Origin: a virus
DNA length: 21,652 nt
Virus record (IMG/VR): IMGVR_UViG_3300025168_000793
Span: 1-21,652 of that record
Reading direction: 5' to 3' (one strand)
The stretch's first letter is position 1; each line of letters begins with the position of its first letter. Both the position numbers and the translations under genes were made by a program. A model generated the notes under the pieces. It worked only from the letters and a program-made list of their open reading frames with translations. It did no database searches and was not told the origin of the DNA. This document shows positions 44 through 5,142 of the stretch, in pieces.

Positions 44-541
44 ATGAATAGATTTATTATAGAAGAGTCACCACAAAAGATTGCACAATCTTTATGCGAC
101 CAACACATAGTCAAGATGCCATTAGAAGAAGCACAGATGTTATGTACTGCACTGTGGCATGTTGCACCTAAGTATGCAGAAGAGAAGAACTTATATAAAC
201 CTGTGCATCAGAAACATCCTTGTACCCTATGGGCTATGAAGAGTCATACCAATTATAAGTTTGCTTTTAGATTGTATCATCATATGCTAGAAGAATATAC
301 AAATAGGTATGGTAGAATACACGGAGCAAAAAAACATTACAATTCTTTGATGAATGGTGTATCTTTAATACCTGAAGGTCAGATAACACAACACCCACAA
401 TGTTTTAGTGGGATGGATGATTTAAAAACGGATGAGTTCTTTCCAATAAAAGCATATCGTAAATTTTATATTGTTGACAAGTTAAGATTTGCAAGGTATA
501 AGTATACAGATAAACCCAAATGGTTACAGGAGATAGCCTAA
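44..541 (+). CDS. Conserved phage protein of unknown function
   Basis: A 165-residue protein of a type I recall from marine and cyanobacterial phages, without an established activity that I can name. Visible conserved-looking residues are Cys18-x2-His21-x2-Lys24, then Glu28 and Gln31, then His55-x2-His58-Pro-Cys60 and Trp63, followed by an EYTNRYG segment. Such Cys/His pairs could bind metal or be catalytic, but this is inference. Some related phage proteins have been labelled pyrimidine-dimer glycosylase; I cannot confirm that here. There is no signal peptide or membrane segment. The start at 44 follows an AGGAAAG ribosome site at about 34-40. The stop TAA (539-541) shares its last base with the ATG of the methyltransferase gene, so the two are likely translated together. 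Confidence 0.8.
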   Translation: MNRFIIEESPQKIAQSLCDQHIVKMPLEEAQMLCTALWHVAPKYAEEKNLYKPVHQKHPCTLWAMKSHTNYKFAFRLYHHMLEEYTNRYGRIHGAKKHYNSLMNGVSLIPEGQITQHPQCFSGMDDLKTDEFFPIKAYRKFYIVDKLRFARYKYTDKPKWLQEIA

Positions 542-1704
542 TGATTAAGTACAATAACTATTATGCATCAGAGTTAGACAAGCATCCAATAGCTATAACA
601 CAATATCAACACCCAAATACTATACAACTAGGAGATGTTAATAGTATTGATGTTTATAATGATAAGTATAGTGATGTAGATTTACTGTTAGCAGGTTCAC
701 CTTGTACATCATTCTCTGTTGCAGGAAAACGAGATGGTTTCAAAGCAGAAAGTGGACAGTTATTCTACAGATTTGTTGATGCACTCAAAGCAATCAAACC
801 TAAATACTTTCTACTTGAAAACGTCAAGATGTCTAAGGCAAATCAGGACATCATGGTAGATGCAATAAGAGAGGTAGTAGGAGACACCTTTGGTGTACAC
901 ATAGTCAATAGTGCATTAAAAAGTGGGCAGAATAGAGTAAGAATGTATGTCACAAACATACCATTTGATCCATCTAAAATAGAAGATGAGGGCATTGTAC
1001 TAGGAGATGTACTAGAAGAAGATGGTATCTCCAATCCCTTGATGACCAACAAAAATGGCAAGTCGCATTGTCTTACGGCACGATATAATGGTGCAGTATG
1101 GTGGAATAGTATTGAACGTAAGCAACGTACTATGGTGCAGATAGGTGAAACGGCAGAGATAAAAGGATATGATATACTCAAAAGAGTCTACTCTCCTAGT
1201 GGGAAGTCTCCCACTCTTACTACTATGGGTGGTGGGCATAGAGAACCTAAAGTAGCTACGTTCAATCCTAAAGGTGGTCGTATTGTTAACCGTAGACTTG
1301 ATAAGTTGGGTGTACGAAAAGACAATCAATTAGAGATACCTTTTACAGAAAAGATTGAAGTTAGGGAAGATGATAAAACAAATTGTTTAAGTACCATTCA
1401 AAAAGATAACATAGTTGTAGATGATTTAAGATGGAGAAAGTTATTGGTTACAGAAATGGAATCATTACAAACTTTACCTAGAGAGTATACATCTATGGGT
1501 AGGTATAGAAAAGAAGGAGAAAAGTCTATAGCCTATATGCCTGTTGCTAAATCTAATCGAATGAAAGCGATTGGTAATGGGTGGACAGTAGCCATCATCA
1601 AAGAAATATTCAAAGGTATTGATGGTGATTTAAGAGATGTTATGTCATTGTTTGATGGCATATCATGTGGACAACAAGCACTAAAAACAACCAAAAGGAA
1701 CTAA
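541..1704 (+). CDS. DNA (cytosine-5) methyltransferase, circularly permuted
   Basis: C5-methyltransferase of 387 residues that would transfer a methyl group from S-adenosylmethionine to cytosine in DNA. Visible motifs in order: motif II-like YYASELD near residues 7-14, motif IV GSPC with catalytic Cys55, motif VI ENV 93-95, motif VIII QNRVR 130-134, a target-recognition region containing the phage-typical SPTLTTMGGGHREPK segment, motif IX around LLVTEMESLQ, motif X AIGNGWTV 343-350. The SAM-binding motif I, normally at the N-terminus, is here the last part of the protein: VMSLFDGISCGQQAL at 367-381, six residues before the stop. The chain therefore starts just after where motif I normally ends. 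The ATG at 541 is chosen because AGGAGA lies at 528-533. An in-frame ATG at 520 would lie inside the preceding gene and would still add no motif I. No cognate restriction enzyme is visible, so it is probably an orphan enzyme protecting phage DNA. Confidence 0.93.
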   Translation: MIKYNNYYASELDKHPIAITQYQHPNTIQLGDVNSIDVYNDKYSDVDLLLAGSPCTSFSVAGKRDGFKAESGQLFYRFVDALKAIKPKYFLLENVKMSKANQDIMVDAIREVVGDTFGVHIVNSALKSGQNRVRMYVTNIPFDPSKIEDEGIVLGDVLEEDGISNPLMTNKNGKSHCLTARYNGAVWWNSIERKQRTMVQIGETAEIKGYDILKRVYSPSGKSPTLTTMGGGHREPKVATFNPKGGRIVNRRLDKLGVRKDNQLEIPFTEKIEVREDDKTNCLSTIQKDNIVVDDLRWRKLLVTEMESLQTLPREYTSMGRYRKEGEKSIAYMPVAKSNRMKAIGNGWTVAIIKEIFKGIDGDLRDVMSLFDGISCGQQALKTTKRN

Positions 1705-3137: not shown

Positions 3138-3928
3138 TAGATATATATAAACATATAAATGGTATAGACATTAGTATGGGAGAAACAAAAAGAATGAATT
3201 GTCCTGTATGTAATGGTTATAAAACTTTTACAATTACAAGTAACATGGGTCAGAAACTATGGAACTGTTACAAAGCAAGTTGTAGTGTTGGTGGTAATGT
3301 GAAAGTAAACTTATCTGTAGATGAAATAAAACAAAGTTACACAGATGTAGATAATGCGAAAGAGAAGTTTGAGTTTCCTGAATATATTGTAGACTTTAAA
3401 AAGGAAGTGATAGATTTTATTGCACCTAAAAGATACCAAGAAATATATGAACAGTTTTGTATGCACGATATCCGTGAAGACAGAGCTGTATTTAAAGTGT
3501 ATAATAATGATGGAGATGTAGTAGATGCTGTAGGTAGAAGCATCTTTAACAGACTTCCTAAGTGGAAAAGGTATGGTAAAAGTAAACATCCATTTGTAAG
3601 AGGACAGTACAATGCTATGACAGGAGAGCGTAATATGACTTGTATATTAGTAGAGGATTGTATTAGTGCTTGTGTCGTGTCTAACTATGGTATTGCAGGA
3701 GTAGCATTACTAGGTACTAGCCTATTAGATGAACACAAAGATATTTTATCAACTTATTTTGATAAGGTGATTGTAGCATTAGACCCTGATGCACTACCAA
3801 AAACTTTGCAGATAGCGAAGGAATTAAAAGGTTGGGTAAAAGATGTCAAAGTTTTAAAGTTGACAGATGACTTAAAGTATGGTAAGAAGAGAGACATTAC
3901 TAAATTAAAGGAGATAGTATGGAACTAG
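3134..3928 (+). CDS. DNA primase (zinc finger plus TOPRIM, T7 gp4 N-terminal half)
   Basis: Primase of 264 residues, which would synthesise RNA primers for lagging-strand replication. An N-terminal zinc ribbon has Cys23-x2-Cys26 (CPVC) and Cys45-x4-Cys50 (CYKASC). The TOPRIM fold follows, with the catalytic Glu174 in ILVEDC and the metal-binding Asp217-x-Asp219 in ALDPDA. This corresponds to the primase half of T7 gp4, but the helicase half is a separate gene that starts inside its last 10 bp. The ATG at 3134 overlaps the integrase TGA (ATGA) and has AAGGAAA at about 3119-3125; an upstream in-frame ATG at 3095 would add 13 residues inside the integrase and is less likely. Confidence 0.9.
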   Translation: MIDIYKHINGIDISMGETKRMNCPVCNGYKTFTITSNMGQKLWNCYKASCSVGGNVKVNLSVDEIKQSYTDVDNAKEKFEFPEYIVDFKKEVIDFIAPKRYQEIYEQFCMHDIREDRAVFKVYNNDGDVVDAVGRSIFNRLPKWKRYGKSKHPFVRGQYNAMTGERNMTCILVEDCISACVVSNYGIAGVALLGTSLLDEHKDILSTYFDKVIVALDPDALPKTLQIAKELKGWVKDVKVLKLTDDLKYGKKRDITKLKEIVWN

Positions 3929-5142
3929 CATTAGTAAGAAGCCTGATGGACAAAGATTTTTATGATGACCATCGTGGAGCAAGATGTCCTAATAGACTGT
4001 TTAGTAAAGATGTTAGGAAGGTAAAAGAAGTATTAGACCTAGCAATAGATAAGTATAATAGGTCTGTTACACCTGATGAAGTTGAAGCATTGTTTGTATC
4101 TAATAATCCATCAATGACTACGGCACAAAAGAACGCATTTCTTTCTATGTTTATGAAGATAAAGAAAGAACAATGTCTTGGTAAAGATGTAGCACAGGAT
4201 GTATTAGCAAAATTGTTTCAGCAGATTGTTGGAGAAGACATTGCTAATCTAGGATTTGATTATGTGAATGGAACGAAGGCAAACCTAGAACCTTTACGTA
4301 ATATATTAGAGCAGTATGGTGATGACTTTACACCTAATCTAAATATAGAATGGGATGATATAGATATCAAAACACTACTTGATAAGAATGACCTAGAAGC
4401 TAGATGGACATTCAATATACCATCTTTGACTAGAAAGGTAGAGGGTATCAATGCAGGACATCTTGTTGAGATAGGTGCTAGACCTAATACAGGTAAGACA
4501 TCTTTTCATGCATCTTTGATTGCATCCCCAAATGGATTTGCATCACAAGGTGCTAAATGTATTGTGTTATGTAATGAAGAAGGTAGTCACAGGGTGGGTG
4601 CAAGATACCTGACATCTGCTACAGGAATGACATTGCATGAAATTAAAAACAACCCAAAGAAAGCACACGACTTGTATTCAAAAGTCAAGGACAACATAAA
4701 AATAAAAGATAGTTCTATGCGAGATATGAATTGGGTAGAGTCTGTTGTTAAATCATTCAAGCCTGACATTGTTGTGTTAGATATGGGCGATAAGTTTGCT
4801 ACGACACAGGGATTTGCTAGAGCAGATGAAGCACTCAAAGCCTGTGCAGTTCATGCAAGACAGATAGCTAAACAATATGATTGTGCCATGCTCTATATGT
4901 CACAGCTATCTGCTGAAGCAGAAGGTAAGATTATTCTTAATCAAAGTATGATGGAAGGTAGTAGAACAGGAAAAGCTGCAGAAGCAGATTTGATGATACT
5001 GATAGCAAAGAACCCACCTGTAGAAGGACAGGATGAAGAAGATGCACAGAGACATTTAAATATTGTCAAGAATAAACTGTCAGGTTGGCATGGTAATGTT
5101 CACTGTGAATTAGAATATAAAACAGCTAGATACATAGCTTAA
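3919..5142 (+). CDS. DnaB/T7 gp4-type replicative DNA helicase
   Basis: Hexameric RecA-fold replicative helicase of 407 residues that unwinds DNA ahead of the polymerase. The N-terminal about 150 residues look like a DnaB-type helical domain (MELALVRSLMDKDFYDD at the start). The ATPase core has a Walker A loop GARPNTGKTS at 186-195, Walker B-like IVVLD ending at Asp288, a helicase-type YMSQLSAEAEG segment, and a final basic region NKLSGWHG. It overlaps the primase gene by 10 bp, and AAAGGAGA at 3907-3914 gives a strong ribosome site four bases before the ATG. Primase and helicase made as separate, coupled products would replace the single bifunctional T7 gp4. Confidence 0.92.
   Translation: MELALVRSLMDKDFYDDHRGARCPNRLFSKDVRKVKEVLDLAIDKYNRSVTPDEVEALFVSNNPSMTTAQKNAFLSMFMKIKKEQCLGKDVAQDVLAKLFQQIVGEDIANLGFDYVNGTKANLEPLRNILEQYGDDFTPNLNIEWDDIDIKTLLDKNDLEARWTFNIPSLTRKVEGINAGHLVEIGARPNTGKTSFHASLIASPNGFASQGAKCIVLCNEEGSHRVGARYLTSATGMTLHEIKNNPKKAHDLYSKVKDNIKIKDSSMRDMNWVESVVKSFKPDIVVLDMGDKFATTQGFARADEALKACAVHARQIAKQYDCAMLYMSQLSAEAEGKIILNQSMMEGSRTGKAAEADLMILIAKNPPVEGQDEEDAQRHLNIVKNKLSGWHGNVHCELEYKTARYIA

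Follow-up and report, generated by a model that had tools for sequence, protein, structure and literature searches.

Natural circular permutations of the C5-cytosine DNA methyltransferase fold include M.BssHII, M.Alw26I, M2.Eco31IC, M.Esp3I and M2.BsaI. In the M.BssHII type the break lies in the variable region, the motif order is IX-X-I-VIII and both domains stay whole, and a 2018 survey of REBASE gives 27 natural permuted enzymes, all broken in the variable region (PMC5944983). The same text proposes that evolution favours permutation routes that keep both domains intact, designates a break between motifs II and III as class B, and suggests weaker SAM binding as a possible reason why this II/III break is absent in nature (PMC5944983). 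Two enzymes engineered in that work, cp35M.MpeI and cp33M.SssI, are active in E. coli, and cp35M.MpeI protects plasmids fully or almost fully after induction, so the topology with a break between motifs I and II can work; the paper reports no natural counterpart of these man-made enzymes (PMC5944983).

Here we describe a natural enzyme with this break, encoded in a window of 21,652 nucleotides (the whole stretch of viral DNA that was analysed, IMG/VR record IMGVR_UViG_3300025168_000793). The gene is very probably that of a complete orphan C5-cytosine DNA methyltransferase of natural, circularly permuted form, carried by an HMO-2011-like marine phage, with motif I encoded at its 3′ end. All catalytic motifs are shared with canonical C5-methyltransferases (M.HhaI, M.HaeIII and the DNMT3 catalytic domain; PF00145), but motif I of the phage enzyme stands at the C-terminus. 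Like M.BssHII and the enzymes listed with it, this is a natural circular permutation of the same fold; unlike them, it does not place motifs IX-X before I-VIII: motif II comes first in the chain, and it is the SAM-binding domain that is divided, between motifs I and II. Its N-terminus is equivalent to the new N-terminus of cp35M.MpeI (M.MpeI 35) and, judging from the number in the name, to that of cp33M.SssI. Plant DRM methyltransferases have a different break point, with motifs VI-X before I-V. They too are natural circular permutations of a C5 enzyme, but eukaryotic (PMC3227630).

Results

The gene occupies positions 541-1704 on the plus strand and translates into 387 residues with the motif order II-III-IV-VI-VIII-TRD-IX-X-I. 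An AGGAG ribosome-binding site (528-532, plus strand) is found 8 nt 5′ of ATG541, and the stop codon of the upstream gene (539-541) shares one base with this ATG. The longest open reading frame starts at 520, a start that was rejected as unsupported: homology begins at Met541, and in one relative (L009) an in-frame stop precedes that Met. The upstream gene, at 44-541 of the window, matches the Pfam family of pyrimidine dimer DNA glycosylases (PF03013, 26.2 bits), and a gene of this type is present in many related phages, either upstream or downstream of the methyltransferase.

All motifs are encoded on the plus strand. The N-terminus opens with motif II (MIKYNNYYASELDKHP), and motifs II-III together take up residues 1-33 (YASELDKH...QLGDV; 541-639). 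The codon of the catalytic Cys55 in motif IV (AGSPC) is at 703-705, motif VI (ENV, residues 93-95) at 817-825, and motif VIII (QNRVR, residues 130-134) at 928-942. In a 29-row alignment ENV and the motif VIII residues Q130, N131, R132 and R134 are invariant, and PC of motif IV, ENV of motif VI, QxRxR of motif VIII and GNG of motif X are each near-invariant or invariant. The alignment and the structural model place the target recognition (variable) region at approximately residues 150-298 (988-1434), most of which is modelled with low confidence. Motif X (GNGWTV, residues 345-350; 1573-1590) is followed by a linker, DGDLRD (residues 361-366; 1621-1638), which leads from the motif X helix to the relocated motif I, a strand and a helix at residues 367-383 (VMSLFDGISCGQQALKT; 1639-1689). 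Residues 367-381 read VMSLFDGISCGQQAL, and the protein ends in VMSLFDGISCGQQALKTTKRN. Within the last methyltransferase codons lies AAAAGGA (1693-1699, plus strand), judged from the sequence to be the probable ribosome-binding site of the next gene (ATG 1706).

The Pfam profile PF00145 matches residues 3-360 at profile positions 21-322 (E 3.4e-31); because the match begins only at position 21, the first 20 profile positions are absent at the N-terminus. Models of motif I and of the full-length enzyme were built solely from canonical enzymes, 120 in all, of viruses and bacteria. The motif I model matches residues 367-382 with 31.0 bits, the best score in 2000 shuffles of the 387-residue protein being 3.7 bits, and the match is therefore not due to chance. 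The full-length model splits, its positions 22-304 falling on residues 2-360 and its positions 3-19 on residues 367-383. Rotation of the tail to the front yields a single unbroken match over positions 3-304 (323.2 bits, against 292.3 bits without the tail), while four arbitrary rotations leave it in two pieces. These results bear out an earlier note on this DNA, which had read the 387-residue product as beginning at motif II, with Cys55 early in the chain and motif X followed by motif I at the C-terminal end, and had reasoned that the joined ends give the normal transition from motif I to motif II. No second motif I block was found elsewhere in the window, which is itself a fragment, so that partner genes may lie outside it. 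With motif I after motif X, the protein is a permuted member of the C5-cytosine DNA methyltransferase family (PF00145); it departs from the usual linear order with motif I first, though the family also admits natural permutants.

Relatives were collected by scans of IMG/VR and classified by motif order. Motifs II to X followed by I were found in 34 full-length open reading frames on distinct viral contigs from many metagenomes, in three sequence groups: that of the window (n = 12 full-length, including the window), the L016/L020/L030 group (n = 14) and the L268/L482 group (n = 8). Identity between groups is ~50-60% where compared, and canonical relatives are far commoner than the I/II-permuted forms. 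The marine phage homologues of like motif order for which the earlier note had proposed a search thus exist. Since 34 full-length genes on distinct contigs share the order, it is not an assembly error, and with independent contigs in agreement and the tail conserved, the assembly rearrangement that had been considered is ruled out. Close homologues retain the tail and have no upstream motif I, contrary to the tail-less form also considered there.

At all 33 loci classed as I/II type the neighbouring genes (integrase, primase, hydrolase, nucleotidase and others) are like those of HMO-2011-like phages, and the DNA polymerase of the window shares 63% identity with its counterparts in Roseobacter phage CRP-345 and SAR116 phage HMO-2011. 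CRP-603 carries a canonical methyltransferase upstream of its integrase. When 50,697 phage records were searched with the junction, no I/II permutant from a cultured phage stood among the matches listed. One junction scan of bacterial genomes (66 loci), which as a single scan does not prove absence, likewise gave no I/II permutant and recovered only canonical genes, tandem genes and a single fused duplicate. In a phylogenetic tree the I/II form falls in three places, which suggests more than one origin, but the test is weak: its placement as one clade is only weakly rejected (AU p 0.035), and none of the pairwise groupings is rejected (p 0.106-0.216). The permuted group L477-L484 has an unusual active site: its motif IV reads PPC or VPC, and its motif VI has EET instead of ENV.

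One contig of 110,914 bases (IMGVR_UViG_3300029448_000003; L009, L554, L555) carries two methyltransferases ~59 kb apart, both of which have an integrase-like gene, a primase, a helicase and a polymerase of their own nearby. The contig appears to join two different, related HMO-2011-like phages, by an assembly join or as a concatemer, whose DNA is 72-81% similar. Both genes sit well within their respective phage segments, so the comparison of the two is unaffected by the join. They occupy the same locus, and one is canonical (L554, reverse strand, 3196-4365) and the other permuted. Upstream of the two alleles the DNA shares 81% identity, and the alignment runs on through ATAGAGGAGAAGTAAATG and the start codon, after which the canonical allele reads KDVVSLFDGMSCGQIALNRVGIDYRNYYACEIE and the permuted allele IKYNNYFASELD. 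A 63-base motif I segment is cleanly absent, in frame, after the ATG of the permuted allele, and its equivalent is found 3′ of motif X. At the protein level, the canonical allele continues with MKDVVSLFDGMSCGQIALNRVG, while the permuted allele begins with MIKYNNYFASEL and ends with VMALFDGISCGQQAL.

Structure prediction was conducted with AlphaFold2 and 29 sequences. In class I methyltransferases the motif I strand of the sheet is flanked by those of motifs II and IV, and we take strands 6-10 and 46-52 of the phage enzyme (motifs II and IV) to be these two neighbours. The full-length model has a pTM of 0.70 and a mean pLDDT of 65, a mean lowered by the poor prediction of the target recognition domain (164-298); over the first 50 residues the average is ~90, and residues 361-387, at about 85-95, form a strand (366-370) and a helix (376-383). 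When the tail is left out, confidence drops from 93 to 71 at residues 1-10 and from 94 to 88 at residues 41-50, residues 81-150 are barely altered, and pTM goes from.70 to.66. Loss of confidence at the flanking motif II and IV strands is what would be expected if the tail fills the place of motif I, and this indirect test leads us to expect the tail in that site. A structural aligner, which is sequential and spans residues 1-365 in nearly all rows, matches the fold of canonical C5-methyltransferases with Z 20-23 over residues 1-365, and pairs residue 1 with M.HhaI 30 and M.MpeI 35 (4dkj).

Permuted enzymes of gut phages (nd4, MT835513 and relatives) also carry motif I after motif X, with breaks between motifs III and IV or II and III. 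The II/III break is seen in gut and rumen-type phage contigs (MT835513.1, L396, gene at 534-2327; L402, L424, L433, L470, L474 and others), whose enzymes start at motif III (MKHLGDI) and have motifs I and II at the C-terminus (FDGIGGFP...WASEIEEFPIAVTK). In phage nd4 (OR777945; L083) the gene at 966-2642 starts just before motif IV and carries motifs I-III at its C-terminus; this III/IV break recurs in L085, L089, L091, L126 and L248-L259, a group not found in HMO-2011-like phages. Two observations go beyond the earlier note: the I/II arrangement recurs across HMO-2011-like marine phages, and II/III and III/IV breaks are phage-borne as well.

Substitution patterns indicate that the tail is under purifying selection. 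Between the window and L003, the core has 31 nonsynonymous differences over 852 sites and 106 synonymous differences over 228 sites, and the tail has no nonsynonymous and one synonymous difference; between the window and L011, the core is 61% and the tail 91% identical. The last codons of the tail partly overlap the probable ribosome-binding site of the next gene, and given this overlap and the few synonymous changes, some tail conservation may act at the DNA level. An inactive relic, in which the N-terminal motif I was lost and the tail is left over from a neighbouring duplicated gene, would also lack motif I in its usual place and would agree with the presence of tandem copies in phages; the strong purifying selection on core and tail, the intact catalytic motifs of the aligned homologues and the order retained across groups only ~50-60% identical make it very improbable. 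Less probable still is a permuted enzyme that transfers a group other than methyl, like CmoX with carboxy-SAM: phage C5-family enzymes of this kind exist, but CmoX candidates require SPPC together with an Arg at the position of SpCmoX R350 (PMC12783734), and the phage protein reads AGSPC, with GNG in motif X. Least probable is a split enzyme that obtains motif I in trans from another protein, or donates its tail to a partner in the manner of two-subunit C5 enzymes. Fragments of C5 enzymes can complement each other (PMC5944983), but exactly one motif I block, inside the permuted open reading frame, occurs in 24 of 24 sequences (the window and 23 same-type loci), and the tail is predicted to fold onto its own chain.

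Discussion

The circular permutation with a break between motifs I and II, as proposed in the earlier note, is supported by sequence, by homologues of the same order, by an allelic canonical gene and by structure prediction. Its suggestion that such a break may be undescribed holds within the open-access literature searched, where, as far as we found, an I/II break was previously known only from engineered enzymes.

In the complete permuted methyltransferase that we favour, the tail would take its place between two strands, that of motif II, which opens the chain, and that of motif IV, and so restore the normal SAM pocket. We infer that the enzyme is active on a target site, where Cys55 would attack the flipped cytosine as in M.HhaI. 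Its role is likely methylation of phage DNA against host restriction, a protection that has been proposed for such genes in the HMO-2011-like phage group (PMC6918029).

The permuted gene probably arose in situ, from a canonical allele that would have lost ~21 codons directly behind its ATG and gained an equivalent motif I segment after motif X. The simplest route would be tandem duplication followed by truncation of both copies, which PMC5944983 cites as the usual route to permutation. Tandem C5 genes occur in phages, consistent with this route. Two or three tandem canonical C5-methyltransferase genes per phage are found in L129, L139, L145, L082 and L084. A single open reading frame of a Lachnospiraceae MAG (JAILGL010000030.1, 2272-4074; L340) fuses two complete C5-methyltransferases in head-to-tail order whose target regions differ; permutation by duplication would be expected to pass through such an intermediate. 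C-terminal ends reading YNNNKE-V and WDERWT- are common to permuted and canonical genes (L016 3′ end, L079, L040, L030, L044); these identical ends were dropped as evidence for duplication because they overlap ribosome-binding sites of the next gene and may only mark exchange at the gene junction.

We lean towards the view that permutation within the SAM-binding domain has occurred repeatedly among phage C5-methyltransferases, more than once between motifs I and II as well as between II and III and between III and IV, and that selection has kept these forms. If true, this contradicts the published rule that natural permutation is confined to the variable region. Marine and gut phages hold permuted forms missed by the 2018 REBASE survey (PMC5944983). 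Canonical and permuted alleles at the same locus in related phages offer a matched comparison made by nature, in which the price or advantage of permutation could be measured and its origin traced.
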